Assembly (NCBI RefSeq): GCF_900115505.1
Contig: NZ_FOWQ01000003.1
Span: 558,001-622,000, forward strand
Length of the DNA stretch: 64,000 nt
Direction of reading: 5' to 3'
DNA from: Geodermatophilus dictyosporus
GTDB taxonomy: Bacteria > Actinomycetota > Actinomycetes > Mycobacteriales > Geodermatophilaceae
Part shown: positions 1 through 30,016 of the stretch, piece by piece
How the letters are laid out: each line of letters starts with the position of its first letter
Position numbering within the stretch: the stretch's first letter is position 1
Program-made: the position numbers and the translations under genes
Notes under the pieces: model-generated
The model's database searches: none
Told to the model about the DNA's origin: nothing
The model's input: the letters and a program-made list of their open reading frames with translations, nothing else

Positions 1-870
1 GGACTGACGGTGGTGCAGACCTGCACGCGGACCCCGATCGCGTTCCGCGGGGCCGCGGCGTCGACGAGCCAGTCACCGCTCGCCCTCAGCCCCCCGGCCC
101 AGACCCAGCCGGGCGACGTCCTGGTGGCCCAGGTGGCCTACTACGGGACCTCGACGATCAGCGCGCCCGGCGACTGGACCCTCCTCTCCGCGGACACGAG
201 CGGGACGTCCGTGACCTCCGCCGTCTTCCACAAGGTCGCCACGGGCAGCGAGGCACCCGCGGTCTTCAGCCGTCCGCCCTCCAGTCCCGGGGACATGGTG
301 GGCGGGATCGTCGCCTACGGCGGGGTCGACCCGAGCAGCCCCGTCGCCGTGACCGGCAGGACCACGGGGACCGGCGAGACGGTGAACCTGCCGACGGTGA
401 CGACGACGGTGAAGGACACGGTGCTCGTGTACTTCCTCGCCAAGTCGGGCGGACTGCTCCCGACGCCCGGGGCTCTGCAGGAACGCTGGCGGCTGAGCTC
501 CGACAGCGAGGGCGCCACCGCGGCGGACGAGTCCTTCGTGGGACCGGGGACGACCCCGTCCCGCTCGTCCTCGACGCCCGGCTCCGCCACCGAGTACGTC
601 GCCCACACGATCGCCCTGCGGCCCACCGCGCCCCAGGTCGGCGCGTCCCTGTCCTGGACGGCCAGCCCCAGCACCTGGGCGACCGGCTACCGCCTCGAGC
701 GCAGCACCGCAGGTACGGCGCAGGCACCCCGGAGCATCACCCCGGTCGGCACGACGTCGACCACCGAGGGGCCGCTGGTCAACGGCACCGCGTACTCGTT
801 CCGCCTGTGGGCCTACCGCGGCACCTGGACCTCCACCGTCGCCACCGCTCCGCTGACCCCTGCCTGCTGA
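1..870 (+). CDS. Secreted beta-module/fibronectin-III protein, 5' end cut by window
   Basis: The reading frame is open from base 1, and the first visible GTG (position 10) falls inside a conserved segment, so the real start lies upstream. The visible 289 residues hold one beta-rich module (about residues 8-205; motifs TQPGDVLVAQVAYYG and APGDWTLL) and a C-terminal fibronectin-III-like domain ending in FRLWAYRGTW and a final Cys. The next gene is a close tandem paralogue with the same two domains, and modules of the same type occur three times in the protein at 25967-30016. It is probably an exported surface or matrix protein, by analogy with the paralogue's signal peptide. No catalytic residues are visible and the function is unknown. 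Confidence 0.8.
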   Translation, partial: GLTVVQTCTRTPIAFRGAAASTSQSPLALSPPAQTQPGDVLVAQVAYYGTSTISAPGDWTLLSADTSGTSVTSAVFHKVATGSEAPAVFSRPPSSPGDMVGGIVAYGGVDPSSPVAVTGRTTGTGETVNLPTVTTTVKDTVLVYFLAKSGGLLPTPGALQERWRLSSDSEGATAADESFVGPGTTPSRSSSTPGSATEYVAHTIALRPTAPQVGASLSWTASPSTWATGYRLERSTAGTAQAPRSITPVGTTSTTEGPLVNGTAYSFRLWAYRGTWTSTVATAPLTPAC

Positions 871-927
871 CGCCGCCCGTCGCCGTGCGCGCGTACTCCC
901 CCCGGGGGAGGGGTGTGCGGCCGGCCG

Positions 928-954
928 CTCAAGTCGGCGCGGGGCGCGGCCGAT
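928..954 (+). promoter_or_regulatory. Possible FliA/WhiG-class sigma factor promoter
   Basis: CTCA at 928-931, a 17-base spacer and GCCGAT at 949-954 lie about 50 bases upstream of the ATG at 1003. Motility and sporulation sigma factors of the FliA/WhiG class recognise promoters with a GCCGAT/GCCGAA-type -10 element. That the sites match is seen; that a FliA-like factor uses them is inference. Confidence 0.45.
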
Positions 955-1002
955 GCTCCGGCGAGGACCCGCCACCGGGCGGGACCCGGCAGGAGGACGG
1001 CG

Positions 1003-2055
1003 ATGACACGGTCACGGTGCGCGCGGCGGCTGCCGCGCCGCGCGCTGGCCGCCGTCGTCGGCGCGCTGGCGCTCCTCGCCCTCACGGTGCTGCTGCCCGG
1101 CGCCTCGGCGCGGTTCACCTCGGTGACCGGCAACCCGGCCGGCGCCTGGGCCACCGACGGGGTGGCGCCGCCGACCGGCTTCTCGGCGGCCCTGGCCTGC
1201 GCGACCACGCCCGTCGCCTTCCGCAGCGTGGCGACCGCCACCGGCACCGAGACGCTGACCCTCCCGGTGCCCACCGGCACGGTGGCCGGCGACCTGCTGC
1301 TGGTCCACATCGCCCACTCCTGGACCGGGGCGCCCTTCACCACGCCCGCCGGGTGGACCCACGTCCGCACCGACAACAGCGCGAACACGATCGTCTCCGC
1401 GCTCTACTGGAAGAAGGCCGCCACGGGGGAGGCGAGCGCGACGTTCAGCTACCCCCCGGGGAGCTCCGTCAAGATGGGCGGCGCCATGGCCGCCTACACC
1501 GGGGCGGACACCACCACGCCCGTCGACGACCACAGCGGCCAGGTCGGCACCGGTACGTCGGCCACCACCCCCGCGGTGACCACCGCGACCGCGGGCACCC
1601 TGGTGCTGCGGTTGATCAGCCACGCCGCCCAGCCCCACCCGGCGCCGACCGGCACGACCCCGCGGTGGAGCGTCGGCCCGGTGTCCGGCCTGGGCGGCTA
1701 CAGCGCGGGCGACGAGCAGGTCACCGGTGCCGGTCCGGTGTCCTCCCGGTCCTCGGCGTCGACCGGGACCTCGGCGGCCTGGGTGGGGCAGACCGTCGCG
1801 CTTCGGCGGGCCCCGGGCACGCCGCAGGCGGCCCTCTCCTGGACGGCCAGCCCCAGCACGTGGGCGAGCGGCTACCGCCTCGAGCGCCGCTCCGGCGCCA
1901 CGGTGCAGTCGGACCGGTCGATCACGCCGATCAGCACGACGTCCGCCACCGAGGGGCCGCTGGTCAACGGCACCTCGTACACGTTCCGCCTGTGGGCCCA
2001 CCGCGGCACCTGGACCTCCACCGTCGCCACCGCCTCGCTGACCCCCTCCTGCTGA
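1003..2055 (+). CDS. SipW-type exported protein with beta-module and fibronectin-III tail
   Basis: This is a 350-residue exported protein. The ATG is chosen because AGGAGG lies 7 bases upstream and a signal peptide follows directly: arginine-rich start, hydrophobic stretch about residues 12-34, likely cut after ASA. The next residues, RFTSVTGNPAGAW, resemble the mature start of actinobacterial proteins annotated as SipW-dependent exports. A beta-rich module follows (about residues 60-260; TVAGDLLLVHIAHSW, TPAGWTHV), then a fibronectin-III-like domain (about 275-350) ending in Cys. The domain order and much of the FN3 sequence match the gene ending at 870, so this is a tandem duplication. A structural fibre or matrix role is possible but unproven. 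Confidence 0.82.
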   Translation: MTRSRCARRLPRRALAAVVGALALLALTVLLPGASARFTSVTGNPAGAWATDGVAPPTGFSAALACATTPVAFRSVATATGTETLTLPVPTGTVAGDLLLVHIAHSWTGAPFTTPAGWTHVRTDNSANTIVSALYWKKAATGEASATFSYPPGSSVKMGGAMAAYTGADTTTPVDDHSGQVGTGTSATTPAVTTATAGTLVLRLISHAAQPHPAPTGTTPRWSVGPVSGLGGYSAGDEQVTGAGPVSSRSSASTGTSAAWVGQTVALRRAPGTPQAALSWTASPSTWASGYRLERRSGATVQSDRSITPISTTSATEGPLVNGTSYTFRLWAHRGTWTSTVATASLTPSC

Positions 2056-2147
2056 CCCGCCGGGTCGGGACGGATCGACAGCGCGGCGCCGCCGACTTCG
2101 TCAACCCCCGCGGTCCCGGCATCCCCGGACCGGGCCCCCGCGCGGCC

Positions 2148-2153
2148 TACCGT
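2148..2153 (+). promoter_or_regulatory. Possible -10 box (TACCGT) of a leaderless transcript
   Basis: TACCGT ends 8 bases before the GTG at 2162 and no Shine-Dalgarno sequence lies between. This resembles the -10/start spacing of leaderless actinobacterial genes. No clear -35 is visible. Confidence 0.35.
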
Positions 2154-2161
2154 TCCTGCCC

Positions 2162-3052
2162 GTGGCAACGGGGGAGCGTCCGGTCGCCCTCCTCCGGGAG
2201 GCGCTGGCCGTCGAGGTGCTGCTCGACGCCACCTGGCACCCGGCCGAGCTGCTGGGCTGGCGGCACGACGGTCCCGGCACCGCCCGGCTGCGGGTCCGCC
2301 TGGACTGGGACGGCGACCCGCGGGTGCTGTGGACGCCGCTGACGCTCGCGCGGCTGCCCGTGCCCGGCGCCGTGCCGGCACCCCGGCGGTCCCCTCCTGC
2401 GCTGCCCGCTCCGCACCGGGCCGCGCACCCCCCGGTCCGCCGGGCGGCCCCGTCCCCGCCGGCTCCTCCGGCCGGCACCTCGTCCCCGTCGTCCGCCGCC
2501 GAGCTCCGGCTGCAGGTCGAGCTGCTCAAGCTCCAGGCCGGCGTGCGCGAGGAGCGCCGCCGCGTGGTCGTCGTCCTCGAGGGCAGCCGCGACGCCGGCC
2601 AGCAGGGCATCGCCGCCGCACTCGTCGAGCACCTCGACCCCCGGTGGGCGCGGGTGGTGACCGACGCGCCCGACCGCGCCGCGCTGCTGCCCCGCCCGGG
2701 CGGTCTCCTGGTCGCCGACCGCTGCTGGTGCGGCCCGGCCCCGGTGGCGGTCGACGAGCTGGTGGCGCGCGAGCGGGCGCTGCTCGCCGACGGCGTGCAG
2801 CTGGTCAAGCTGTGGTGCTCGGTGCGCCGTCCCGACGCCGACCCCGTCGCCGAGGCCGCGCTGGTGGGCGCCACCTCGACCCCCGGCGCGCCGTGGACGG
2901 TGCTGGCCGCCGACGACGAGCCGCGGGCCCGGCTGGCGGCGCTGCGGCAGGTGCTCTCGACGGTGGACTACCGCGGCCGCAGCGACGACGTCCTCGGCCG
3001 GCCCGACCCGCTGCTGGTGGCCGCGGTGCCGCCGCTCGCCGCCCGCCCGTGA
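2162..3052 (+). CDS. PPK2-like protein with degenerate active site
   Basis: The 296-residue product has an N-terminal domain of unknown type (about 1-68), a Pro/Ala-rich linker (about 69-113) and a C-terminal half that follows the polyphosphate kinase 2 pattern: LRLQVELLKLQ, RRRVVVVLEGSRDAG, VEHLDPRWARVV, VADRCW, QLVKLWCSV, APWTVLAADD. In active PPK2 enzymes the P-loop reads like GRDAAGKGG and a lid helix carries basic residues. Here the loop is SRDAGQQG without the lysine, and the lid segment between SVRRPDAD and APWTV is largely deleted. I infer a non-catalytic PPK2 relative, perhaps regulatory or polyphosphate-binding. It starts with GTG, probably leaderless, and faces the crotonase gene. 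Confidence 0.72.
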   Translation: MATGERPVALLREALAVEVLLDATWHPAELLGWRHDGPGTARLRVRLDWDGDPRVLWTPLTLARLPVPGAVPAPRRSPPALPAPHRAAHPPVRRAAPSPPAPPAGTSSPSSAAELRLQVELLKLQAGVREERRRVVVVLEGSRDAGQQGIAAALVEHLDPRWARVVTDAPDRAALLPRPGGLLVADRCWCGPAPVAVDELVARERALLADGVQLVKLWCSVRRPDADPVAEAALVGATSTPGAPWTVLAADDEPRARLAALRQVLSTVDYRGRSDDVLGRPDPLLVAAVPPLAARP

Positions 3053-3057
3053 GGGGA

Positions 3058-3088
3058 GCGGCGCGGGCCTACGGCCGGCCCGCGCCGC
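3058..3088. terminator. Convergent hairpin terminator
   Basis: A perfect 12-bp stem (GCGGCGCGGGCC at 3058-3069 against 3077-3088) with a 7-base loop lies between two convergent genes and overlaps the stop codon of the crotonase gene. There is no U tract, as is usual in high-GC actinobacteria. Confidence 0.6.
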
Positions 3089-3863
3089 GGAAGTCGGGCC
3101 GGCGCTTCTCGACAAACGCGCGCACGCCCTCGCGCCCCTCGGGGTCGGCGGCGGACTCGGCGATCAGCCGCGCCTCGTCGTCCAGCTGCTCCTCCAGCGT
3201 GCGGATGGCCGCCCGCCGGACCAGCCCCCGGGTGCGCACCATCGCGCGCACCGGCCCCGTCGCCACCCGGTGGGCCAGGGCGACGGCGGCCTCGCGCAGG
3301 TCCTCGTCCTCGACCAGCCGCGCGACCAGCCCGAACTGGTGGGCCTCGGCGGCGGTGAGCGCGCCGTCGGTGAGCATCAGCTCCAGCGCGCGCGGCGCGC
3401 CCAGCGCCCGGGTGAGCGCCCACGAGCTGCCGCCGTCGGGCGAGAAGCCCAGCGCGCCGTACGCCGGGCGGAACTTCGTCGAGCGGGCGCAGACGACGAC
3501 GTCGCAGGCCCCCACCAGCCCGACGGCCGCGCCGGCCACCGCGCCCTGCACACCGGCGACCACCGGCACCGGGCTGTAGAGCAGCCGGCGCACCACCTCG
3601 TGCCAGTCGTGCGCCAGGCGTCCGACGAAGGCGCCGGGGTCCTCGGCGCGGGCGAAGGAGTGCACGTCGCCGCCGACGCAGAAGCGCTCGCCGCTGCCCA
3701 GCAGCAGCACCGTCCGGGTCGCCTCGGGGCGGGCCTCCAGCGCGGCGGTGAGCTGCTCGGCCATGGCCGGGTCCAGCGCGTTGCCGGCCTCGGGCCGGTC
3801 CAGCGTGATGGTCCAGACGTCCCCGTCGAGCGCGGTGAGGACGCGCGGGTGGTCGGTGGTCAT
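3069..3863 (-). CDS. Enoyl-CoA hydratase/isomerase family protein
   Basis: This 264-residue crotonase-fold enzyme acts on CoA thioesters, probably in fatty-acid or amino-acid breakdown in the cytoplasm. The ATG at 3863 is preferred to upstream in-frame codons because GGGAGGACC directly precedes it. Family marks seen: ITLDRPEAGNALD, the oxyanion-hole segment SGERFCVGGDVHSF, the second glycine-rich strand GVQGAVAGAAVGLVGACD, and LGFSPDGGSSWALTRALG. The acidic residue in the last motif is Asp, as in PaaG-like isomerases, so hydratase and isomerase cannot be separated. The gene stands alone, convergent with the PPK2-like gene; the exact substrate is unknown. Confidence 0.88.
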   Translation of the reverse strand: MTTDHPRVLTALDGDVWTITLDRPEAGNALDPAMAEQLTAALEARPEATRTVLLLGSGERFCVGGDVHSFARAEDPGAFVGRLAHDWHEVVRRLLYSPVPVVAGVQGAVAGAAVGLVGACDVVVCARSTKFRPAYGALGFSPDGGSSWALTRALGAPRALELMLTDGALTAAEAHQFGLVARLVEDEDLREAAVALAHRVATGPVRAMVRTRGLVRRAAIRTLEEQLDDEARLIAESAADPEGREGVRAFVEKRRPDFRGAGRP

Positions 3864-3915
3864 CGGTCCTCCCGAGGGCGGTGGCGACCACCGTAGGGCC
3901 CGGCCGCGCACCACC

Positions 3916-5445
3916 TCAGAACCAGGAGGGGAACCACATCCGCAGCAGCCACTCCGCGTGCGGGAGCGGCCGCCCGGCCAGCACCGGGTAGAAGAACGCG
4001 AACGTGCCGGCGACGACGGCGACGTAGCCGCTCACCGAAGCCAGGCCCACCGTGCGCCGCCACTGCGTGGCCCCCGGCCGGCCGAGGACGTCCTGCAGCA
4101 CCAGCGTCACGGCGAGCACGAAGAACGGCAGCACCGGCGCGGTGTAGAAGGCGAACATCGTCCGCTCGGGGTTGAGGAACCAGGTGCCCCACCCGGCGGC
4201 GACGGCGACCGCGACCAGCACCGCCGCGGGGTCGCGCCGGGCGACGATCCGCCAGAGCAGCCACAGCAGGGCCGGCGCGAAGGCCAGCCAGAGGGTCGGC
4301 GTCCCGACCATGAGGATGTAGCGGATCACCTGCCCGCCGGTCCCGTCGGTGAGGCCCTGCGGGTTCCACAGCAGGATCGGCCGGCCGTTGACCAGCCAGG
4401 TCCAGGGGCCGGACTCCCACGGGTGCGGCGTCGACAGGCCGTTGTGGAAGTCCCACCACTCGACGTGCATGTGCCACCAGGAGCGCAGCGCGCCGGGGAC
4501 CCACGGGAACGCCGTCTCCGGGTTGCGCTGCGCCCACCAGCGGCCCTGCGCCGTCTCGCCGAGGAACCACCCGGTGAAGCTCGCCACGTAGGTGAGCACC
4601 GGCACGGCCGCCAGCGCCCAGGTCGCGCCGGGCAGCCCGCGGCGCAGCGCGGTCGCCGTCGGCCGCGGGACGCCCGCCTCCCGCCACGCCGCGCGGTCCC
4701 AGAACAGCGAGAGCACCGCGAAGAAGGCGAGGAAGTACAGCCCGCTCCACTTGACCGAGCAGGCGCAGCCGAAGAGGACCCCCGCGGCGATCCGCCAGCC
4801 GCGCGGCCCGAGGCGGGACCCGGTGGCCGGCACCGGCAGCGACGCGCGGACGCGGGCGCGCACCCGGTCGCGGTCGACGACCAGGCAGGCGACCGCGCCG
4901 AGCACGAGGACCTGCAGGAACACGTCGAGCAGGCCGATGCGCGAGACGGTGAACTGGAAGCCGTCGAAGGCCAGGAGCAGGCCGGCGACCACGCCCAGCA
5001 GCGTCGAGCCGGTCAGCCGCCGCGCCAGCCGCACGAGGACGACGACGCTGATCGCCCCGGCCACCGCGGACGGGAACCGCCAGCCGAACGAGTCGTAGCC
5101 GAACAGCTGCTCCCCGGCCGCGATCAGCCACTTCCCGAGCGGCGGGTGGACGATGAAGGTGTAGCCGCGGTTGTACTCGTGGCCCCAGGTGAGCAGGTCG
5201 TGGGCCTCGGGCGGGTAGTAGGCCTCGTCGAACAGCAGCGTGTCGGGATAGCCGATGCCGACCAGCCGGCTGACCAGCGTGAGCACGCCGAGCACCCCGG
5301 CCAGCAGCCAGGACAGCAGCCGGTCGCCGGGCAGCGGCGGGGTGCGGTCGGTGCGCGGCCGGGGCAGCGGCAGGCGGCGGCGCGCGCGCGGCGGCGGGCC
5401 CGGCGGGTCCCCGGCGTCCGTGCGCTCGGGAGCCAGGACCGCCAT
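3916..5445 (-). CDS. Protein O-mannosyltransferase family (GT39) membrane enzyme
   Basis: A 509-residue polytopic membrane protein of the Pmt/GT39 family, which transfers mannose from polyprenyl-phosphate mannose to Ser/Thr of exported proteins. A Pro/Arg-rich cytoplasmic N-terminus (about 1-42) is followed by the first membrane helix and then LFDEAYYPPEAHDLL, whose Asp-Glu pair (residues 73-74) is the catalytic acidic motif of the family. VHPPLGKWLI, FRFP-like WRFPSA and several hydrophobic helices follow. It is divergent from rsmI, an arrangement common in actinobacteria. The secreted proteins elsewhere in the window are possible substrates; that is inference. Confidence 0.88.
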   Translation of the reverse strand: MAVLAPERTDAGDPPGPPPRARRRLPLPRPRTDRTPPLPGDRLLSWLLAGVLGVLTLVSRLVGIGYPDTLLFDEAYYPPEAHDLLTWGHEYNRGYTFIVHPPLGKWLIAAGEQLFGYDSFGWRFPSAVAGAISVVVLVRLARRLTGSTLLGVVAGLLLAFDGFQFTVSRIGLLDVFLQVLVLGAVACLVVDRDRVRARVRASLPVPATGSRLGPRGWRIAAGVLFGCACSVKWSGLYFLAFFAVLSLFWDRAAWREAGVPRPTATALRRGLPGATWALAAVPVLTYVASFTGWFLGETAQGRWWAQRNPETAFPWVPGALRSWWHMHVEWWDFHNGLSTPHPWESGPWTWLVNGRPILLWNPQGLTDGTGGQVIRYILMVGTPTLWLAFAPALLWLLWRIVARRDPAAVLVAVAVAAGWGTWFLNPERTMFAFYTAPVLPFFVLAVTLVLQDVLGRPGATQWRRTVGLASVSGYVAVVAGTFAFFYPVLAGRPLPHAEWLLRMWFPSWF

Positions 5446-5498
5446 GCGCCTCAGGGTATGTGCGCCGCCGGGGCGGGCCGGCGTGACAGGCTCGGGAC

Positions 5499-6338
5499 GT
5501 GACCGGACGGCTGGTGCTCGGTGGTGCCCCGCTCGGCCAGCCCGGCGACGTCGGCCCGCGGCTGCGCCGGGTGATGGCCGAGGCCGACGTCCTGGCCGTC
5601 GAGGACACCCGGCGGCTGCACCGGCTGGCCACCGACCTCGAGGTGACGCTCACCGGCCGCGTGGTGACCTTCCACGAGTCGGTGGAGCGCTCCCGCCTGC
5701 CCGGGCTGCTGTCGGCGCTCGACCAGGGCCAGACCGTCCTGCTGATCACCGACGCCGGCATGCCCTCGGTCTCCGACCCCGGCTACACGCTGGTGCGGGC
5801 GGCGATCGAGGCCGGGGCCGAGGTCACGTCGGTGCCCGGGCCGTCCGCGGTGACGACGGCCCTGGCGGTCTCCGGGCTGCCGGTGGACCGGTTCTGCTTC
5901 GAGGGCTTCCTGCCCCGCAGGGCCGGGGAGCGCCGGTCGCGGCTGGCCGGGCTGGCCGACGAGCGCCGCACGATGGTGTTCTTCGAGTCGCCGCACCGGC
6001 TGGCCGACGCCCTGGCCGACTGCGCCGCCGCGTTCGGCGACTCCCGGGCGGCCGCGGTGTGCCGGGAGCTGACCAAGACCCACGAGGAGGTCCGGCGGGG
6101 GCCGCTGACGGAGCTGGCCTCGTGGGCGGCCGACGGTGTGCGCGGGGAGATCACGCTCGTCGTCGCGGGCGCGTCGCCGGAGCCGGTGGCCCTGTCGGCC
6201 GGCGAGCTCGCCGCGCTGGTGGCGGGCGAGGAGGCCGCAGGAGCCACCCGCAAGGACGCCATCCGCGCCGTCGTCACCCGCACCGGCCTGCCCCGCCGCA
6301 CGGTCTACGACGCCGTCGTCGCCACCAAGGACACCTGA
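5499..6338 (+). CDS. rsmI: 16S rRNA (cytidine-1402-2'-O)-methyltransferase
   Basis: RsmI uses S-adenosylmethionine to methylate the ribose of C1402 in the 16S rRNA decoding centre. The 279-residue product has the tetrapyrrole-methylase fold signature: VEDTRRLHRL, TDAGMPSVSDPGY, VPGPSAVTTALAVSGLP and FEGFLPR, in the usual order. The GTG start sits six bases after CAGGCT, so the message is probably leaderless. The N-terminus (LVLGGAPLGQPGDVGPR) aligns with the usual ATPIGNLxD segment with several changes. A C-terminal tail carries a lysine-rich helix (TRKDAIRAVVTRTGLPRR), typical of the family. It is divergent from the Pmt gene. Confidence 0.95.
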   Translation: MTGRLVLGGAPLGQPGDVGPRLRRVMAEADVLAVEDTRRLHRLATDLEVTLTGRVVTFHESVERSRLPGLLSALDQGQTVLLITDAGMPSVSDPGYTLVRAAIEAGAEVTSVPGPSAVTTALAVSGLPVDRFCFEGFLPRRAGERRSRLAGLADERRTMVFFESPHRLADALADCAAAFGDSRAAAVCRELTKTHEEVRRGPLTELASWAADGVRGEITLVVAGASPEPVALSAGELAALVAGEEAAGATRKDAIRAVVTRTGLPRRTVYDAVVATKDT

Positions 6339-6342
6339 CCTC

Positions 6343-6400
6343 CGACCGTGCACTCGTCGGGGCCATCGGCGGCAGCGATGCCCCGGCAGGTGCACGGTCG
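6343..6400. terminator. Long intergenic hairpin after rsmI
   Basis: Arms CGACCGTGCAC (6343-6353) and its exact complement (6390-6400) enclose a second stem of GGGG-CATCG against CGATG-CCCC, leaving a 7-base loop. It lies just after the rsmI stop and is likely a terminator; it could also be a dispersed palindromic element. Confidence 0.55.
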
Positions 6401-6438
6401 CACCGACCTGTGGACGACGCCGGCGGGAGAGGTCCCTC

Positions 6439-7368
6439 GTGCGGCACGGTGCCGCGGTGTCCCGCCCCCCGGCGCAGCCGTCGCGCCTGACCACCGGCCC
6501 GTTCCGGGGTACCACCGCGGTCGCCCGGGGGCTGCTCACCGCGGACCAGCTCCGGAGCAGCGCCTGGCGGCGACTCTTCCGGGACGTCTACCTGCACCGT
6601 GACCTCCCGGTCACCCACGAGCTGCGTGCCGTGGCCGCGGCGGGGCTGCTGCTCCCCGGCGCCGTCGTCTCGGGGAGGAGTGCGGCGGTCCTCTGGGGCA
6701 TCGAGCTGGCCGGGACCGACGACGACGTCGAGCTCACGCTCCCGCCGGGGCGCCACCCGGTGCGGGTGGGTGGGTTGCGCGTGTGCCGGGCGTCGCTGGC
6801 CGGGGACGACGTCGAAGGCCGTCGGGGAGTCCCGGCCACCACGCCGGAGGCCACCGCCCTCGACCTGGCCCGGCACCTGGAGGGGGACGACGCGGTGGTG
6901 GCAGTCGACCGGGTGCTGGCCTCCGGCCTCGTCGACCTCGGTGCGCTGCGCGGTCGTGCGGCACGGTGCACGGGGCGAGGGAGTGCGCGGGCGCGGGCGG
7001 TCTGTGCGCTCGCGGACGAGCGGTCGGAGTCCCCGCAGGAGACGCGACTCCGGGTCCTCCTCCTCCGGGCGGGTCTGCCCGTGCCGGTCCCGCAGTTCAC
7101 CGTCCGGGTCGGGGGCCGCTTCGTCGCCCGCGTCGACCTCGCCTGGCCGGACCTGCGGGTGGCCGTCGAGTACGACGGTCGCTGGCACGCCGAGGCGGGA
7201 CAGTTCGCGCGGGACCGGCAGCGGCTCAACCGGCTGCAGGAGGCGGGGTGGCGCGTGGTCTTCGTGACCGCCGCGGACCTCCACCGGCCCGGCGAGCTGG
7301 TCGCGCGCGTCACCCGGGCCCTCGCGGCCGTGAGTGTGCGCTCCCCGGGCCCAGCCGCCGGCAGCTGA
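6439..7368 (+). CDS. AbiEi-like HTH / DUF559 nuclease-fold protein
   Basis: This 309-residue protein combines an N-terminal segment like the AbiEi antitoxin winged helix (AVARGLLTADQLRSSAWRRLF, then RDVYLHR) with a C-terminal DUF559 domain of the Vsr/PD-(D/E)XK nuclease fold (ARVDLAWPDLRVAVEYDGRW, then FARDRQRLNRLQEAGWRVV). Acidic D..E.D residues and RDRQR fit the expected core. Start: GTG at 6439 is chosen because GGAGAGG lies about six bases upstream; GTG at 6457 is an alternative. No toxin partner is adjacent. This architecture is frequent in actinobacteria, usually as a lone gene of unknown role. The gene is framed by two hairpins, one covering its last codons. Confidence 0.75.
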   Translation: MRHGAAVSRPPAQPSRLTTGPFRGTTAVARGLLTADQLRSSAWRRLFRDVYLHRDLPVTHELRAVAAAGLLLPGAVVSGRSAAVLWGIELAGTDDDVELTLPPGRHPVRVGGLRVCRASLAGDDVEGRRGVPATTPEATALDLARHLEGDDAVVAVDRVLASGLVDLGALRGRAARCTGRGSARARAVCALADERSESPQETRLRVLLLRAGLPVPVPQFTVRVGGRFVARVDLAWPDLRVAVEYDGRWHAEAGQFARDRQRLNRLQEAGWRVVFVTAADLHRPGELVARVTRALAAVSVRSPGPAAGS

Positions 7369-7390
7369 CCCCGGGGGCCGCACACTCGCG
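7329..7390. terminator. Convergent hairpin overlapping a gene end
   Basis: The arm CGTGAGTGTGCGCTCCCCGGG at 7329-7349 is nearly complementary to 7369-7390 (one mismatch plus one bulge in about 21 pairs). The left arm lies in the last codons of the DUF559 gene and the right arm just beyond the corA stop, so it can terminate both convergent transcripts. Confidence 0.65.
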
Positions 7391-7395
7391 CCCAG

Positions 7396-10876: not shown

Positions 10877-10882
10877 CGGGGC

Positions 10883-21639: not shown

Positions 21640-21707
21640 GTGTGCTCCTCGTGGGGTGTGCCGCGCGCGGCCGCCGGCACACCGGCCGATCCACCTGAGG
21701 AGCACAC
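21640..21707 (+). promoter_or_regulatory. Leader hairpin enclosing the rplY Shine-Dalgarno sequence
   Basis: GTGTGCTCCTC at 21640-21650 is an exact complement of GAGGAGCACAC at 21697-21707. The right arm contains the GAGGAG ribosome-binding site (21697-21702) of rplY, nine bases before its GTG. A second stem, GGTGTGCCG against CGGCACACC, lies inside. The geometry could hide the ribosome-binding site, as in autogenous ribosomal-protein leaders; that role is inferred. Confidence 0.55.
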
Positions 21708-21711
21708 CACC

Positions 21712-22416: not shown

Positions 22417-22424
22417 GGTCCCCG

Positions 22425-23072
22425 CTGACCGAGAGCACCACCCGCAGGGGCGCCGGCACCGCCGGCGCCCCTGCGGCGTCCGCTCCCTCCGAGGGGCCCT
22501 TCCTCGTCGTCGGCCTGGGCAACCCCGGCCCGGGCTACGCCGGCAACCGGCACAACGTCGGCGCGATGGTCCTCGACGAGCTCGCCGCCCGGGCCGGGGT
22601 GAAGCTGGCCCCCGGCAAGGGCGCGCGCGCCCGTGCGCTCTCGGGCGAGGGCCGGCTGGCCGGCCGCCGCGTCGTCCTCGCCCGGCCGACGACGTACATG
22701 AACGAGTCCGGCGGCCCCGTCCGCGGCCTGCTCGACTACCACAAGCTGCCGGCCACCGACCTCGTCGTCGTCCACGACGAGCTCGACGTCCCCTTCGCCG
22801 CGGTCCGGCTCAAGCGCGGCGGCGGCGAGGGTGGCCACAACGGCCTGCGCTCGATCAGCCGCGCCACCGGCACGAAGGACTACCTGCGGGTGCGGGTCGG
22901 CATCGGCCGCCCGCCCGGCCGCCAGGACCCGGCCGACTTCGTCCTCAAGGACTTCTCGGCCACCGAGCGCAAGGAGCTCGACCTGCTCGTCGCCGAGGCC
23001 GCCGACGCCGCCGAGGAGCTGGTCGCCCTCGGGCTGGAGGCGGCGCAGAACGTCGTGCACCCCCGCAGCTGA
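22425..23072 (+). CDS. pth: Peptidyl-tRNA hydrolase, probable CTG start
   Basis: Pth frees tRNA from peptidyl-tRNAs that drop off ribosomes. The core shows [57 protein letters not shown] and [12 protein letters not shown], with catalytic His in RHNVG. In this frame there is no ATG, GTG or TTG between the rplY stop and the conserved first strand. CTG at 22425 follows TGAGG by seven bases and gives LTEST..., the kind of start seen in relatives as MTEST. The product is then 215 residues with a 24-residue Ala/Thr-rich extension. A perfect 14-bp hairpin lies within that extension. Confidence 0.92.
22444..22474 (+). other. Perfect 14-bp hairpin in the pth start region
   Basis: GCAGGGGCGCCGGC (22444-22457) is an exact complement of 22461-22474, with loop ACC. 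It begins 28 bases after the rplY stop and lies inside pth codons if pth starts at the CTG. It could attenuate rplY read-through or slow translation of pth; only the structure is seen. Confidence 0.6.
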
Positions 23073-23258
23073 CCCGGTGGGACCGGACTTCTCCTTCGGG
23101 TGAAGCGTCACTCTCCGCATTGCCTCTCCCGTGACTCTCTGTGAATGTCCTTCCTGCGTCGTGGGGGACACGGCCGGTCTCGAGGCGGCGGGCAGGATGT
23201 GCGTTCCGTAGCAGAGCCCCCTGTGCGCACGCAGTGTGATGACGTGTGAGGGGGAGAC

Positions 23259-24776
23259 GTGCTGCTGGACCACCTGGGTGCAGGACGGGGGACGACGACG
23301 ACGGCGTCGGCGGTCGTGCCGGTGCCGCGCCCCGTGCCGGACACCGCGGCCGTGAGGCCCGGTGTCAGCCGCCCGACAGCCGCGCGCCGCTGGGCCGGCC
23401 GGTACGCCGCGGCGCTGGTCGCCGTCGAGGTGGCGGCCGCAGCCCTCACCTCGGTCGCCGTGCTCGTGGCCCGCTGGCCCGAGCTGACGGCCCGCTCACC
23501 GCTGGTCTGGGCAGCCTGCGTCCTCCCGCTGACGTGGCCGGTGCTGCTGCGGGGTGCCGGCGCGCACGACGAGCGCGTGTTCGGCACCGGCAGCGAGGAG
23601 TACCGCCGGGTCGCCCGGGCCGGCTTCCTGCTGCTGGCGCTGGCCAGCCTCGTCTCCTACGTCGGCCACCTCGAGCTCAGCCGCGCGTTGGTCCTCGTCG
23701 GCATCCCCGCTCTCACCGCCGTCACCCTGCTCGTCCGCCTCGGTGCCCGGTGGCAGCTGCGCCGGCTCCGGACGCTGGGGCGCTGCACGAAGCGGGTCGT
23801 CGTGGTCGGCCGTGGCGGTGCGGTGGCCGAGCTGACCACCCGCCTGCGCCGGGAACGCGCCGCCGGGCTCGAGGTCGTCGCCGCCTGCGTGACGCCGGAC
23901 AGCCGTGCGCGGGTGACCGACGCCCTCGGGGTGCCGGTCGGCGGCCTCGACGACGTCGCCGCGACCGCCGCCCGGCTCGGTGCCGACACCGTGGCGGTCA
24001 CCTCCGCCAGCGAGACCGCCGCGGAGTACCTGCGCCGGCTGTCCTGGCAGCTCGAGGGCACCGGGGTGGAGCTGCTCGTCGCACCCGGCCTCATCGAGGT
24101 GGCCGGACCCCGGCTGCACATCCGCCCGTTCGAGGGCCTCCCGCTGCTGTCGGTCGAGCAGCCCCGCTTCGAGGGGTGGCAGCGGGTGGTCAAGGGTGGC
24201 CTGGACCGGGTCGTCGCCGCGCTGGCGATCGTCCTCCTCGCCCCGGTGCTGCTGGCCATCGCCGCGGCCGTCAAGCTGACCAGCCCCGGGCCGCTGCTCT
24301 ACCGCCAGGAGCGGATCGGCGTGAACGGCCGGTCGTTCACGATGTACAAGTTCCGCAGCATGGTGGTCGACGCCGACCGGCAGGTCGACGCGCTGCGAAC
24401 GCAGAACATGTCCGACGGGCTGCTGTTCAAGATGCGGTCCGACCCGCGGGTCACCCCGGTCGGACGGCTCCTGCGTCGGCTCTCGCTGGACGAACTGCCA
24501 CAGCTGCTCAACGTCCTGGGCGGCACCATGTCGCTGGTCGGGCCGCGACCGCCGCTGCCGAGCGAGGTCGCCCGCTACGAGCCCCCGGTGCACCGCAGGC
24601 TGCTGGTCAAGCCCGGCCTGACCGGCCTCTGGCAGGTGTCCGGTCGCAGCGACCTGCCGTGGGAGGAGGCCGTGCGCCTGGATCTCCGCTACGTCGAGAA
24701 CTGGTCGCTGGCCATGGACCTGCTCATCCTGGTCAGGACCGCCCGCGCCGTCCTCAGCCGGTCCGGGGCCTACTGA
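23259..24776 (+). CDS. Polyprenyl glycosylphosphotransferase (WcaJ/CpsE type)
   Basis: This enzyme starts exopolysaccharide synthesis by moving a sugar-1-phosphate from a nucleotide sugar to undecaprenyl phosphate. The 505-residue product has four N-terminal membrane helices (about 45-160), a Rossmann-like middle (KRVVVVGRGGAVAEL) and the C-terminal catalytic domain from about residue 308: a membrane segment, then LTSPGPLLYRQERIGVNGRSF, MYKFRSM, SLDELPQLLNV, LVGPRPPLPSE and KPGLTGLWQVSGRS. The GTG is preceded by GAGGGGGAG. It opens the surface-polysaccharide locus. The donor sugar cannot be read from sequence. Confidence 0.93.
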   Translation: MLLDHLGAGRGTTTTASAVVPVPRPVPDTAAVRPGVSRPTAARRWAGRYAAALVAVEVAAAALTSVAVLVARWPELTARSPLVWAACVLPLTWPVLLRGAGAHDERVFGTGSEEYRRVARAGFLLLALASLVSYVGHLELSRALVLVGIPALTAVTLLVRLGARWQLRRLRTLGRCTKRVVVVGRGGAVAELTTRLRRERAAGLEVVAACVTPDSRARVTDALGVPVGGLDDVAATAARLGADTVAVTSASETAAEYLRRLSWQLEGTGVELLVAPGLIEVAGPRLHIRPFEGLPLLSVEQPRFEGWQRVVKGGLDRVVAALAIVLLAPVLLAIAAAVKLTSPGPLLYRQERIGVNGRSFTMYKFRSMVVDADRQVDALRTQNMSDGLLFKMRSDPRVTPVGRLLRRLSLDELPQLLNVLGGTMSLVGPRPPLPSEVARYEPPVHRRLLVKPGLTGLWQVSGRSDLPWEEAVRLDLRYVENWSLAMDLLILVRTARAVLSRSGAY

Positions 24777-25197
24777 CCCGTTCCGAGGTCATCGGGGTCC
24801 GCAGGCGCGCCGCCCCGCCGACGGCCCGGGACTCACGCGGGGCCGTCCGCCGCGTCCGTGAGCACGCGCTCCGACGTCGTGAGCGGGAGGTGGCGCGTGC
24901 CGCGCAGTCGGGCCGGCGCCCCGGCGGGTGTCCGCCGACGCTGCCGGCGCCACTGCCCGGCGACGACGGCGACGGTCACCGCCTCGCCGCCGCCGTCCGC
25001 CGCGGCTGCGACGCCAGCGCGCCGCTGCAGGCGCACGCCGGCACCCCCTCCGCGTACGAGCCGCAGCTCGTCCTGCACGTCGACCATGCCGGCGGTGAGC
25101 CGGCGCTGGTGGTCGGCGGCCGGCCCCCGCACGCTCCTGGCCCACCAGCCGTGTGCGGAGGCACCCTGCAGCGGTGCGGAAGGGGACGAGGAAGCCG
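24777..25197 (+). other. 421-base gap without a confident gene
   Basis: Two overlapping open frames have GC-rich third positions. One on the plus strand runs from just after the preceding stop and ends in a TGA overlapping the ATG at 25198, but lacks a good start (only GTG at 24890, with no spaced ribosome-binding site). The other, on the minus strand from ATG at 25084 to 24833, would encode 83 residues (MVDVQDELRLVRGGG...) without a visible ribosome-binding site. Neither resembles a family I know, and second-position composition does not separate them. Confidence 0.3.
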
Positions 25198-25848
25198 ATG
25201 AGCGGTCGCCGAGGCACGCCCGTGATCGGTGACGTGACCGTGCCCGGGCGGCGCACCCACCGACGCCGGGCGCGCGGACTCGCACCGGCCGCACTGCTGG
25301 CCGGTGCGGTGCTCGGCCTCGTGGGCGGCTGCGGCGACCCGGACCTGCTCGACCCGACGGAGGATCCGCTGGCCGCCGACCGCGAGCAGCTCGTCGACGA
25401 CATGACCGGCGCCCTGGCCTCGGCCGCTGACCAGCTCGGCGCCGGCGCGGCGCTGGGCACCCGGGTGGACACCTGGTGCTCCGCCGGTGAGGACACCTGG
25501 GAGTACACGGACGACCACCGGTCGACCTGTCAGCTCTCCCTCACCTCCGGACACCCGCTGAGCACCGGCGTCGGCGTCGGGGTGGACCACCTGCGCGAGT
25601 ACGGCCTGCCCGTGACCCAGGTGACCGGTGTGCGGCTCTACAGCGCCGAGGGCAACGGCAACTCCATCACCCTGTCGTTCCGGCCCGCCTCGACACCGGT
25701 CGACCCGGCGCGGTCGGGCTCCCCGGCGGGCTACTACACGGACACCGAGGGCTCGGACTGGCAGGACGGGTGGTCGGCGCAGAGCCCGTGGCACCCCTTC
25801 GTGATCGTCGCGTCCAGCGACGCGGTGCTCGGCGAGCAGCCCTGGTGA
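25198..25848 (+). CDS. Putative lipoprotein of the polysaccharide locus
   Basis: The 216-residue product has an Arg-rich start, a hydrophobic stretch (about 28-44) and a lipobox LVGGC with the lipidated Cys at residue 45. The mature part has a DPTEDPLAADREQLVDDM helix, then a mixed beta-rich region with two Cys (WCSAGED, STCQLSL) that could form a disulfide, and aromatic-rich C-terminal segments. The ATG has GGACGAGG just upstream. I recognise no family. It lies 421 bases after the initiating transferase and converges on the PKD-repeat gene, with a shared terminator between them. Confidence 0.75.
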   Translation: MSGRRGTPVIGDVTVPGRRTHRRRARGLAPAALLAGAVLGLVGGCGDPDLLDPTEDPLAADREQLVDDMTGALASAADQLGAGAALGTRVDTWCSAGEDTWEYTDDHRSTCQLSLTSGHPLSTGVGVGVDHLREYGLPVTQVTGVRLYSAEGNGNSITLSFRPASTPVDPARSGSPAGYYTDTEGSDWQDGWSAQSPWHPFVIVASSDAVLGEQPW

Positions 25849-25884
25849 GCGACCGGTGGCCCGCTGCGCCGCCGGCACGCACCA

Positions 25885-25918
25885 GGTCGCCGGGTGGGCC
25901 CCTGCCCACCCGGCGACC
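25885..25918. terminator. Convergent hairpin terminator
   Basis: GGTCGCCGGGTGGGC (25885-25899) pairs perfectly over 15 bases with 25904-25918 around loop CCCT, between two convergent genes. Confidence 0.8.
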
Positions 25919-25966
25919 CCGGAGCCGCGACCGGCCGGCCGCGCGTGGTACCTGCGCGCCCGCCGG

Positions 25967-28900
25967 TCAGGCGGCCGGGCGCAGGGCCACCAGCCACCCG
26001 CCGACGGCGGTCGCCTTCGGCAGGCGCCAGGTGGCGCTGCCGCTGGGCCCCGTGGCGGTCGTCGCGCGGGAGGCCAGCTCGGCGGCCTGGGCGCCGCTGC
26101 TCTCACCGAGCTCGGTCCACCCGCTCGGCGGCTCGATGCCGGCCGCCGAGCTGTCGAGACCGATGCCCCCGACCAGCAGCGCGCCCGGGGTGACGGTGGT
26201 GACCCCGGGGAGGGTCAGGCCGGTCGCGGTGAAGGTGCGGTCGACCCCGGTCACCGGCGCGGTGTCGAGGGGGGTGGTCCGGTCGACCCCGCGGAAGCTG
26301 CCCACGACGGCGTTCCACTTCTGGGCGGCCGACAGCCGCCAGGTGTAGGAGGCCGGCTCGGTGGCCGCGCTGGTCACCACGTGCGAGTAGACGAAGACCC
26401 GGGCCCCGCCACCGATGGACACCGGCCCGGTGAGCACCGGCGTCCAGCCGGCCGGTGCGCTGCCGACCGTGGGGGCGCTGTCCGTCGTGAACTGCGCGAT
26501 GAGGACGTCGCCGTCGGCGATCCCCGCCGGGCGGGGCACCGTCACGTCCGGCACCGCGGTCAGCGACACCGCCGTCGCCGAGGGGCCGGCCGTGACCGCT
26601 CCGCCGGCCGGCGGCGGGGTGTCCGGGCCCGTCACCGTGATGGTCGCGGTGGCCGGGCTGCTGGTGCCGGTGGCGTTGGTCGCGGTGAGGGTCACCGTGT
26701 AGGTGCCCGGCGTGGTGTAGGTGTGCGCCGGGTTCTGGCTGGTGGCGCGGGTCCCGTCCCCGAGGTCCCACGCCCAGGAGGTGGGCGTCCCGGTCGAGGT
26801 GTCGGCGAACTGCACCGCCAGCGGCGCCTGCCCGCCGGTCACCGAGGTGGTGAACGACGCGGTGGGGGCTCCCGGACCCGGCGGCGGTGCCGTGGGCCCG
26901 GACGCCGGCCGCAGCGCGCGCAGCCAGCCGCCCGAGGAGGTGCCCTTGCCCAGCGTCCAGGTCGCCGGCCCGCTCGCCCCGGTCTGGGACGGGGTGCGGT
27001 GCGCGAGCTCGGACACCTGGGCCCCCGAGCTCTCCCAGGCCTCGGTCCACCCGGTCGGCGGGGTCACCGCCGTCGCCGAGCTGTCCAGCCCGATCCCGCC
27101 GACCAGCAGCGCGCCGGCCGTCGTCGTGGTCACGCCGGGCACGGTGAGGCTGGCCGCGGTGTAGCCGGTCTGGACGGCGGTGCTCGCCGGGGAGTCGAAC
27201 GGGGCGGTCGTGTCCACGCCGCGGAACGCGGTCATCCCGGCGTTCCACTTCTGCGCGGCCGAGAGCTGCCAGGTCCACGACGCCGGCTCGCCGGCCGGGT
27301 CGCCGACCACGTGGGAGTAGGCGAACACGCGGGCGCCGCTGTGGATCGCGACCGGCGCCGTCAGCACCGGCGTCCAGCCGGCCGGGACGGTGGCCATGGC
27401 CGGGGCGCCGTTGGCGGTCACCTGGGCGACGAGCACGTCACCGGCGGCGACGCCCGCGGGCCGCGGGACGGTCACGGCGGTACCGGCGGTCGTGCCGACC
27501 GCGGTCGTCGACGCGCCCACCGAGATGCCCGCGGGCCGCGGCGGGGGAGGCGCCGTCACGGTCACCGTGGCGGTGGCCGGGGCGCTGGTCCCGACGTCGT
27601 TGGTGGCGGTCAGGCGGACCGTGTAGGTGCCCGGTGCGGTGTAGGTGTGCGCCACCTCCCGCGTGGTGGCGGTGCTGCCGTCGCCGAGGTCCCAGGCCCA
27701 GGAGGTGGGCCCGCCGGTCGAGGTGTCGGTGAACTGCACCGCCAGTGGCGCCTGGCCCTGGGTCACCGAGGTGGTGAAGGACGCCGTCGGGGGCGCGGGC
27801 CGCGGGCGCAGCGCACGGACCCAGCCGCCCGCGGCCGTGGCCCGGCTCAGGGTCCAGGTGAGGTCCCCGGTCGGGCCGGCCGCGGAGGTCTGGCGGGAGG
27901 CCATCTCCGACACCTGGCCGCCGTTGCTCTCCCAGGCCTCGGTCCACGCGGCGGGCGGGGTGACGCCGGCCGTGAGGTTGTCCAGGCCGAGACCGCCGAC
28001 GAGCAGGGCGCCGTCGGTGACGGTGGTCAGGCCGGGCACGGTGAGCCTGCTCGCCGCGTACGTGGTGTCGGTGGCGGTGCTCAGCGGGGTGTCGAAGGGC
28101 GCGGTGGGGTCGGCGCCGGCGAAGGCGGTCATCCCCGCACCCCACCGCTGGGCCGCCGACAGCGTCCACGTCGCGGTGGCCGGCTCGGTGGCCGGGTCGC
28201 CGACGACCCGGTAGTAGGCGAAGACCCGGGCGCCGCTGCCGAGGGCCAGCGGGCGGGGCAGCAGAGCCGTCCAGCCGCTGGGGACGGCGGCCATGGTGGG
28301 TGCGCCGTCCGCGGTGACCTGGGCGACCAGCACGGTCCCCGCGGTCACGCCCGCGGGCAGGGGGACGGCCACCTCCGTGCCGGCCGTCGTCCCGGCCGCG
28401 GTGGTCGACGCGCCCGCCGTGACGACGCCGCTCGCGGTCGCCGCGGCGGTCACCGTGACGGTGGCGGTGGCCGGCGTGCTCGAGCCGGTGGCGTTGGTGG
28501 CGACGAGGGTGACCGTGTACGTACCCGGGGCGGTGTAGGTGTGCGCCGGGTTCCGGGTCGTGGCGGTGGTGCCGTCGCCGAGGTCCCAGGCCCAGGAGGT
28601 CGGGGTGCCGGTCGAGGTGTCGGTGAACTGCACCGCCAGCGGTGCCTGCCCACCGGTCACCGAGGTGGTGAACGACGCGACGGGGGCCACCGGCGCCGCC
28701 GGCACGGCGGCGAGGTCGGCGTGCCAGTAGCGCTGGGAGGCCTTCTGGCTGGCCAGGACGACGATCCCGCTGGCCGCGGTCACGCTCTGCTTGGTGCCGG
28801 TGACGTCGTTCATGTTGGCCGAGGCGACGTCGCGGATCACCGGGGTGCCGCGCCCGGCGGCGAAGACCGGGTCGGCCATCGGTGCGGTCTTGTCGTAGAT

Positions 28901-30016
28901 CGTGCCGGGCGCGCCGGCGAAGGGGCACCCGCCGCTGGTGGGCGCCGTGGCCAGGACGTGGACGGTCTGGTGCTGCTCGTCCAGGATCAGCAGCGGCCGG
29001 GTGTGGCAGTCGGCGAGCGTGCCCACGGTCGTCGCGGACCACGCCCCGGTGCCCGGCTTGAAGCTCAGCAGCCGGATCTGCGGGTCGGTGGGGGCCGCCG
29101 TCGGGTCGCCGTCGAGGCTGGTCTTGACCACCGCGAACACCCGACCGGACGTGTCGGCCTGCACCGCCTTGATGTTCAGGTGGTCGTCGGCCTGGCGGTT
29201 CCCGCGGACGGCGGGGCTGCCCCGCCAGGAGGTGCGGGAGGTGCCGTCGTCGTGGACCGCCCAGTACACGGTCCCGTCGAGCTGGTTGCTCCACAGCAGC
29301 CCGATCCGGTTGCGGCCGAAGGCCACCACGCTGGAGATGTCGTCCGCCGACACGGCCGACCCCGCCACCGGGACGACGAACGGCGTCCCCCAGCTGCTGT
29401 CGCTGCCGGTGGTGGAGTTGACGTACACCGCGCTCGTGTAGCCGCCGCCCGCGGCCGCGCTGACCTGCGTCCAGGTGGCCCACAGGGTGCCGGTGGAGTC
29501 CTTGTCGATGGTCAGGGACTCGCTCGAGTACTGGGTGATGGCGACGGGGAAGCCGGCGTCGAGTGTGTACCCCCGGTCGGCGGACCAGCTGTACCGGTAG
29601 AGCCGCGCCGGGTTGTTGGCCAGCGACGGGGTGGCGCTCGTGTCGCTGGACAGGCTCACCACGTGCGACGCGACGTAGAGGCGCGTGCCGTCCCACAGCA
29701 CGTCGGCCAGGGTGTTCGGCCGGTCGTCGACCTGCACGCCGGTGTCGACCCACTGCTGGGTCGAGCGGTCCAGCCGGAAGACGTGCCAGGTCTTCGAGGC
29801 CGTGTCGAACATGTTCGCCCACCACGAGCCCTGCGCGAACCAGAGCTTGCTCTGCGGCTTGTCGGACGTGGGCACGTGGGACGCGCCGGCGTAGGACGGC
29901 CCCTGGTACCCGAAGTCCCCCGTCGCTGCGCTCGCCCGGTCGGGACCGACGACCACGCCGCCGACTGCCAGGAGGGCGGCGAGGACGACCACGATCAGAC
30001 TGCGTGTGGCACGCAC
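25967..30016 (-). CDS. Large secreted protein: propeller-like domain plus three PKD-module repeats
   Basis: This 1349-residue exported protein starts with a signal peptide (Arg-rich start, helix about 7-26, ASA cut near 31). GTG at 30016 is chosen because GGGGGAG lies nine bases upstream. Residues about 32-440 have repeated WFAQGSWW, LWATWTQV, GLLWSNQL and VYWAVHDD segments like a beta-propeller. Three tandem units follow at 447, 745 and 1053, each a PKD domain (ASFTTSVTGGQAPLAV, SWAWDLGDG, HTYTAPGTYTV) plus a beta-module of about 200 residues (VTAGTVLVAQVT, PSGWT) related to that of the genes at 1-2055. There is no LPXTG or membrane anchor. Its place in a polysaccharide locus suggests a matrix or adhesion protein. 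Confidence 0.85.
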   Translation of the reverse strand: MRATRSLIVVVLAALLAVGGVVVGPDRASAATGDFGYQGPSYAGASHVPTSDKPQSKLWFAQGSWWANMFDTASKTWHVFRLDRSTQQWVDTGVQVDDRPNTLADVLWDGTRLYVASHVVSLSSDTSATPSLANNPARLYRYSWSADRGYTLDAGFPVAITQYSSESLTIDKDSTGTLWATWTQVSAAAGGGYTSAVYVNSTTGSDSSWGTPFVVPVAGSAVSADDISSVVAFGRNRIGLLWSNQLDGTVYWAVHDDGTSRTSWRGSPAVRGNRQADDHLNIKAVQADTSGRVFAVVKTSLDGDPTAAPTDPQIRLLSFKPGTGAWSATTVGTLADCHTRPLLILDEQHQTVHVLATAPTSGGCPFAGAPGTIYDKTAPMADPVFAAGRGTPVIRDVASANMNDVTGTKQSVTAASGIVVLASQKASQRYWHADLAAVPAAPVAPVASFTTSVTGGQAPLAVQFTDTSTGTPTSWAWDLGDGTTATTRNPAHTYTAPGTYTVTLVATNATGSSTPATATVTVTAAATASGVVTAGASTTAAGTTAGTEVAVPLPAGVTAGTVLVAQVTADGAPTMAAVPSGWTALLPRPLALGSGARVFAYYRVVGDPATEPATATWTLSAAQRWGAGMTAFAGADPTAPFDTPLSTATDTTYAASRLTVPGLTTVTDGALLVGGLGLDNLTAGVTPPAAWTEAWESNGGQVSEMASRQTSAAGPTGDLTWTLSRATAAGGWVRALRPRPAPPTASFTTSVTQGQAPLAVQFTDTSTGGPTSWAWDLGDGSTATTREVAHTYTAPGTYTVRLTATNDVGTSAPATATVTVTAPPPPRPAGISVGASTTAVGTTAGTAVTVPRPAGVAAGDVLVAQVTANGAPAMATVPAGWTPVLTAPVAIHSGARVFAYSHVVGDPAGEPASWTWQLSAAQKWNAGMTAFRGVDTTAPFDSPASTAVQTGYTAASLTVPGVTTTTAGALLVGGIGLDSSATAVTPPTGWTEAWESSGAQVSELAHRTPSQTGASGPATWTLGKGTSSGGWLRALRPASGPTAPPPGPGAPTASFTTSVTGGQAPLAVQFADTSTGTPTSWAWDLGDGTRATSQNPAHTYTTPGTYTVTLTATNATGTSSPATATITVTGPDTPPPAGGAVTAGPSATAVSLTAVPDVTVPRPAGIADGDVLIAQFTTDSAPTVGSAPAGWTPVLTGPVSIGGGARVFVYSHVVTSAATEPASYTWRLSAAQKWNAVVGSFRGVDRTTPLDTAPVTGVDRTFTATGLTLPGVTTVTPGALLVGGIGLDSSAAGIEPPSGWTELGESSGAQAAELASRATTATGPSGSATWRLPKATAVGGWLVALRPAA
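25970..28678 (-). repeat. Three tandem about-900-base coding repeats
   Basis: Units at 28678-27785, 27784-26861 and 26860-25970 each encode one PKD domain followed by one beta-module (298, 308 and 297 residues). PKD parts are nearly identical at protein level and clearly similar in DNA. Such repeats can change number by recombination. Confidence 0.8.

Follow-up and report, generated by a model that had tools for sequence, protein, structure and literature searches.

Secreted module proteins at a TasA/SipW-like gene cluster of Geodermatophilus dictyosporus

Gene cluster at the left edge of the window

We analyzed a 64,000-nucleotide stretch of the Geodermatophilus dictyosporus genome (contig NZ_FOWQ01000003.1, positions 558,001 to 622,000), hereafter the window, which is part of a 708-kb contig. 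Two tandem genes at its left edge encode small secreted proteins, A and B, and a third gene further to the right encodes a large secreted protein with PKD domains. An earlier reading of the window from its letters alone (the original prediction) had proposed that a module of ~200 residues occurs once in each small protein and three times in the large one; we indeed found five such copies, homologous far beyond chance. We also examined a 14-kb region, L009, which extends 10 kb past the left edge of the window, so that a window position equals the L009 position minus 10000. Genomes and loci are identified below by G and L numbers, respectively, G000 being the genome of the window. The genes left of the window and the features of the two small proteins are as follows.

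L009 5421-5496: tRNA-Ala
L009 5691-6344: TasA1, secreted TasA-like protein
L009:6323-6946: SipW-type signal peptidase (TIGR02228, 70 bits, cut-off 51.85)
L009 7029-8069: TasA2, also TasA-like, containing a proline-rich stretch and a hydrophobic C-terminal segment
L009:8066-9715: diguanylate cyclase (PF00990)
L009 9827-10870: small protein A
L009 11003-12055: small protein B
1..870, + strand: 3' part of small module protein A; the gene starts 174 bases before the window, with its ATG at L009:9827
22..630, + strand: module copy in A, from the five-copy profile
1003..2055, + strand: small module protein B, with its ATG at 1003 preceded by a GGAGG-type ribosome site
1003..1110, + strand: SipW-type signal sequence of B, probably cleaved before RF by the rule of Phe at P2' (PMC10269814)
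1111..1158, + strand: mature N-terminal tail of B, resembling the mature N-terminus of the TasA-like subunit; residues 1-15 have low confidence in the structure model
1159..1203, + strand: Fn3 strand A of B with a conserved Cys (codon 1198-1200), from model and alignment
1198..1815, + strand: module copy in B, inserted in the Fn3 domain, from profile and structure model
1813..2052, + strand: Fn3 strands B-G of B, ending in a second conserved Cys (codon 2050-2052)

The peptidase, which the original prediction had suspected just upstream of the window, lies ~3.1 kb to the left of it and passes the NCBIfam model TIGR02228. Its SGSMxP, HRxV and GDAN motifs are invariant in all six aligned peptidase rows, and their Ser, His and Asp are presumably the catalytic residues. 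The score against the Bacillus SipW equivalog NF046067 is 47.5 bits, below the required 190 bits, and by its sequence the peptidase is SipW-like but outside that equivalog. A second, short SipW-like match was seen elsewhere in the same genome (G000:C11:196211-196510, 54% identical over about 100 residues). The start of the cyclase gene overlaps the stop of TasA2, suggesting coupled translation; read by eye, the cyclase retains GGEEF and the upstream RxxD. The Rfam scan of L009 gave nothing but one tRNA.

The naming of TasA1 relies on its relatives. Its homologues in L100 (33% identity over 189 residues, E-value 5e-21) and L099 (37% over 127 residues, 1e-18) both pass the camelysin/TasA model PF12389, and among nine TasA1-type proteins five pass, two score below the cut-off and two have no match. 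A search of 15 genomes gave a PF12389 match above cut-off in nine, with matches at TasA1-type places in G125, G084, G112, G088, G231, G134, G047 and G317, among others; none of the three genus genomes in that search has a match. We therefore call TasA1 TasA-like, i.e. homologous to such proteins by sequence and found in the right company, while not a formal PF12389 member. A plasmid search with TasA1 returned one weak partial match (Euzebya). TasA2 keeps its C-terminal hydrophobic segment and a conserved tail, and it does not have the TasA1-type N-terminus in nine distinct genus genomes and in L099. These N-termini were read in 11 of the 13 loci tried, covering the nine genomes; the search string missed L048 and L057.

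Architecture and homology of the module

Genes A and B are a tandem duplication, with 278 of 300 bases identical in the start region, and their proteins are about 50-53% identical. The structure model indicates that the module is inserted between Fn3 strands A and B. The Fn3 domain and the Cys expected by the original prediction at the end of the small proteins are both present, and the domain has the Fn3 fold, but it encloses the module and does not merely follow it. The two Cys are kept in 18 of 18 proteins, and a relative with an uninterrupted Fn3 domain exists.

When the whole genome was searched with the five-copy profile (E-value ≤ 0.001), exactly these five places matched, all on one contig and inside 30 kb. 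A profile of 12 small-protein modules scored all eight large-type modules at 40-53 bits, against 3.2 for the best of 800 shuffles, and the reverse profile scored all 12 small-protein modules at 15.8-43.8 bits, against 7.6 for the best of 1200 shuffles; three of the 23 rows of the module alignment, from G018 and G016, were in neither profile set. The comparison of the two profiles by hhalign gave a probability of 98.5% and an E-value of 2e-15 over 143 of 203 columns. Taken together, these comparisons indicate that the modules of the small and large proteins are truly homologous, and by sequence they speak against unrelated folds. Pfam and NCBIfam scans gave no curated family covering the module stretch, and a PDB sequence-profile search at E-value ≤ 1 gave no match for the module or for TasA1.

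The fold gives a further clue. The structure model of the small protein has 92 matches at E-value 0.001 or better among predicted viral structures, the best with a template modelling (TM) score of 0.83 by target length and 0.55 by query, over 201 columns at 2.2 A. Of the 50 viral matches listed, five bear the name minor tail protein and come from Mycobacterium phages, and in most of the 50 the sequence identity is 13-23%. Most of them align over ~200 or more columns, which is too long for Fn3 alone, and hence the match is to the module; by these models, the module has a fold like that of phage minor tail proteins. In the PDB fold search the listed matches of the same model were Fn3 matches. 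At the sequence level, the module has partial matches in three Gordonia phages, in a minor tail protein of a Rhodococcus phage and in seven viral contigs. PHROG 3329 matches the large protein along a stretch that includes part of its module 2.

One could take from these matches that the module proteins are domesticated phage tail proteins, serving as receptor-binding or particle parts. The viral models with TM scores of up to 0.83, the five minor tail proteins and the PHROG 3329 match agree with such an origin. Against this, the small proteins carry SipW-type signals and an Fn3 frame, the bacterial copies are widespread in secreted-looking proteins, and no phage gene was recognised among the identified neighbours, which were not scanned with PHROGs. 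We consider this explanation highly improbable. Across the phylum the module was seen by eye together with PKD, Fn3, YD-repeat, phosphatase-like and collagen-like stretches, and it looks like a general extracellular binding domain. We also noticed by eye that in two loci of other actinobacteria (L076 and L081) the module is apparently inserted among the repeats of YD-repeat (RHS-like) proteins, and that in one genome two proteins encoded about 13 kb from each other have it behind a phosphatase-like domain (L077 and L095).

Distribution in the genus and the phylum

In the genus, the small module genes are linked to the TasA-SipW core. A close SipW orthologue (E-value below 1e-60) is encoded in 10 of 25 genus genomes, and nine of these ten have the order TasA1-SipW-TasA2-GGDEF with one or two module genes behind it. 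A module gene in this position was seen in none of the remaining 15 genomes (Fisher p 5e-6; our Fisher tests ignore the relatedness of the genomes). All the small-type genes found in the genus sit at the TasA-SipW core, and G. siccatus provides a further example of the cluster. The profile search proposed with the original prediction found the module somewhere in 13 of the 25 genomes, that of the window included. In three genus genomes (G001, G009 and G020) a TasA-like gene lies beside a SipW-type peptidase whose frame continues into a LamG domain. The exported partner at the core thus differs between lineages, which we read as cargo exchange.

The phylum searches scored 10-11 candidates per genome, and the counts are lower bounds. 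The module is present in at least 22 of 296 genomes and at least 19 of 199 genera (that of the window included), and the TasA1 and SipW profiles have matches in at least 28 and at least 186 of the 296 genomes, respectively. A SipW match lies within 5 kb of TasA1 in all 28 TasA1 genomes examined and at 48 of 53 TasA1 places; this count uses a hand-picked part of the listed SipW rows and includes G000, G125 and G084, whose proteins built the profiles.

Peptidase-cargo fusions

Several actinobacterial genomes encode the peptidase and a likely substrate in one frame. In G125 a single frame of 572 codons comprises a SipW-type peptidase, a second signal segment, an Fn3 domain and the module, and it is followed by TasA1, TasA2 and a diguanylate cyclase that is 36% identical to the one beside the window over 520 residues. 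The frame in G084 comprises a peptidase, a signal segment and a nested module-Fn3 protein, with the TasA1 gene adjoining. A peptidase and LamG share one frame in G182, G130, G001, G009 and G020. The fused frames with other cargo than the module are as follows.

L103:6079-8181: peptidase, signal segment and LamG
L104:7393-8931: peptidase, signal segment and LamG
L120:6004-7764, - strand: peptidase, signal segment and LamG
L121: peptidase, signal segment and LamG
L122:6107-7516, - strand: peptidase, signal segment and LamG
L105:5973-7448, - strand: peptidase (72 bits), second hydrophobic segment and an exported-looking domain without clear match

Five of eight fused peptidase parts pass TIGR02228 (L099, L100, L103, L105 and L121), and those of L104, L120 and L122 are below its cut-off. 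The fusions are known from genome sequence alone, mostly from drafts; their occurrence with different cargo makes an assembly error unlikely. A limited literature search gave no such clusters or peptidase-cargo fusions, and none with LamG, among the matches listed. The search for SipW/TasA in Actinobacteria returned, by title, no actinobacterial system, and a limited search for biofilm matrix proteins of Geodermatophilus found none.

Shared N-termini of TasA1 and the module proteins

In Bacillus, SipW removes the signal peptide of TasA, with Phe at P2' (PMC10269814). A Phe at the corresponding predicted position is invariant in nine of nine small proteins and seven of seven TasA1 rows. Over 16 positions, TasA1 and the module proteins are 41.7% identical at their mature N-termini, compared with 19.8% after permutation, and none of 20,000 permutations reached this value. 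Those of four fused proteins agree too (35.9% versus 21.2%, again 0 of 20,000). In this test the first two positions were fixed and the nine TasA1, 12 small-protein and four fusion rows were picked from earlier results; the TasA1-type rows of L103-L118 were not among them, nor were four of the fusions (L105, L120, L121 and L122). In B. subtilis, TasA uses its N-terminal strand to complete the next subunit, and TapA has an N-terminus similar to this strand (PMC9674648).

Based on these observations, we think it probable that the small proteins are accessory surface proteins (adhesins) of an extracellular fibre system of the TasA/SipW type. They could also be independent secreted binding proteins, e.g. 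for carbohydrate or surfaces, which are processed by SipW but take no part in a fibre, with the shared N-terminus being only a cleavage motif. The many unrelated contexts of the module (phosphatase-like, YD-repeat and PKD proteins by eye, and phage tails) fit such independent binders, as does the existence of a core with no module gene (see below). However, the match to TasA1 runs position by position over 16 residues, past those beside the cleavage site, and the small-type genes found in the genus sit at the TasA-SipW core, and we regard this second explanation as rather unlikely.

The large PKD protein

The original prediction placed the small and large proteins in one exported matrix or fibre family, made in a locus that also makes polysaccharide. 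The features of the large gene and its neighbours are as follows.

23259..24776, + strand: sugar transferase (Bac_transf), beside the large gene
25967..30079, - strand: large secreted protein, N-terminal domain followed by three times PKD plus module
25970..26602, - strand: module 3 of the large protein
26900..27532, - strand: module 2 of the large protein
27797..28429, - strand: module 1 of the large protein
28715..29929, - strand: N-terminal domain of ~405 residues of the large protein, kept in relatives with modules
31032..32558, - strand: UDP-glucose/GDP-mannose dehydrogenase, flanking the large gene on its other side
32550..34007, + strand: Wzz-type chain-length protein with an ATPase domain

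Each module of the large protein follows a PKD domain, as had been proposed (Pfam PKD_4, three stretches, 201.6 bits). The N-terminal domain has no Pfam match and no significant PDB sequence match, and we dropped the label propeller-like for it, which neither search supported. It is combined with the module in proteins of G002, G011 and G018 as well; by eye it also occurs in another family (L071 and L092). In all three relatives checked, the orthologue of the large gene has the same neighbours, i.e. the sugar transferase and the UDP-sugar dehydrogenase.

If the proteins formed one family of this locus, with a locally duplicated block assembled together with polysaccharide, one could readily understand why they use the same module, why all five copies lie on one contig within 30 kb, and why three of the four genus genomes with the large gene also have a small gene. 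The converse holds for three of nine, and over the 25 genomes the two presences are not significantly linked (Fisher p 0.12). In a tree of 52 modules, restricted to rows from a chosen set of loci with an E-value of at most 1e-10 and a length of at least 150 residues, the 12 small-protein rows form one clade (support 100/100) and the eight large-type rows another (99/99); a module from a different family of the class groups with the latter (100/97). The deep forks are open (18 of 49 inner branches). A forced joint clade of both types is mildly rejected by the approximately unbiased (AU) test (p 0.032), for a group named after the tree had been seen. We therefore dropped local duplication as the link between the small and large proteins, the AU result being only a mild rejection. 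The separate clades and the disfavoured joint clade suggest that the two types probably drew on the same domain pool separately, i.e. by its sequences the large protein probably recruited the module on its own. Only the large gene adjoins the exopolysaccharide genes; the small genes are set apart from them by housekeeping genes (CorA transporter, amino-acid permease and methionyl-tRNA synthetase, among others), and the signal sequence of the large protein, read by eye, is an ordinary one. Hence the shared secreted module of the original prediction and its export stand, while a single matrix family of the locus now appears improbable. The large protein is probably a surface protein in its own right, associated with exopolysaccharide, in which the same widespread module is used.

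Proposed mechanism

In the fibre system that we favour, SipW would process TasA1 and the module proteins by removing their signal peptides, TasA1 would polymerise into a fibre, and TasA2 would hold the fibre in the membrane. The module proteins would display their binding domain on the fibre, with the two conserved Cys closing the Fn3 frame, and c-di-GMP (cyclic di-GMP) may tune the production. More speculatively, and by analogy with B. subtilis, the module proteins may donate an N-terminal strand matching that of TasA1 to a free groove of TasA1, while TasA2, with no such strand, may be the base of the fibre; the missing shared N-terminus, the hydrophobic C-terminal segment and the conserved tail of TasA2 are as expected of a base. 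In the tentative model to which this leads, TasA2 would have a groove but no donor strand and form the base, TasA1 would have both and form the polymer, and the cap would be an exchangeable adhesin that has a donor strand but lacks a groove. With similar caution, the cap could be a phage-tail-type module nested in Fn3, or LamG, and in several lineages part of a self-processing peptidase-adhesin polyprotein.

Several observations weigh against the fibre reading. TasA1 beside the window has no match to PF12389, and the structure model of its G. tzadiensis orthologue, from a shallow alignment of seven close rows, is unusable (mean predicted local distance difference test score, pLDDT, of 42.9), so that the TasA likeness is transitive. 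The shared N-terminus may merely reflect recognition by SipW. Averaged over 19 residues, the Kyte-Doolittle value of the hydrophobic segment of TasA2 is only 1.5-1.8 in the genus, which makes it a borderline candidate for a membrane helix. One genus genome (G008:C37, L119) has the TasA1-SipW-TasA2-GGDEF core but no module gene, which means that the module protein is not essential, and a cyclase was found in only three of 19 scanned loci with TasA1 or SipW matches, using a two-sequence profile.

Comparison with known systems

The tapA-sipW-tasA system of B. subtilis (PMC9674648, PMC10151520) is alike in that a dedicated peptidase of the SipW type lies next to a secreted protein of the fibre type and to a secreted accessory protein, whose N-terminus resembles the donor strand of the fibre subunit. 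The Geodermatophilus accessory protein differs from TapA, with which we compared it by role only, in being a nested Fn3/phage-tail-type module; the cluster adds a diguanylate cyclase and another TasA-like protein, probably anchored in the membrane, and its TasA1 is too diverged for the camelysin model. The TasA-CalY-CapP system of B. cereus (PMC13082335) is similar in having several SipW substrates and a third accessory protein that modulates the filaments. CapP and the module proteins were again compared by role only, and the text of PMC13082335 available to us does not mention peptidase-cargo fusions. Besides passing TIGR02228, the peptidase beside the window resembles the archaeal and endoplasmic-reticulum-type signal peptidase I in that its profile matches SEC11 chains, whereas other actinobacterial peptidases continue into a likely substrate in one frame. 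The module shares its predicted fold with minor tail proteins of the Mycobacterium phages Tweety, Shauna1 and Hawkeye and with PHROG 3329, but the window module is nested in Fn3, exported by the bacterium and of low sequence identity to them.

Implications

The nested Fn3 domain and its uninterrupted relative provide a clean case of domain insertion, with a phage-tail-type domain as the insert. The peptidase-cargo fusions are genomic evidence for which proteins the peptidase serves, and they offer a ready test system for the substrate choice of SipW. Our analysis would extend the logic of TasA-SipW matrix fibres, known from Bacillus, to Geodermatophilus and other actinobacteria, where the fibre core may stay constant while exported adhesin domains are swapped; in Geodermatophilus, a c-di-GMP enzyme is encoded in the cluster itself.

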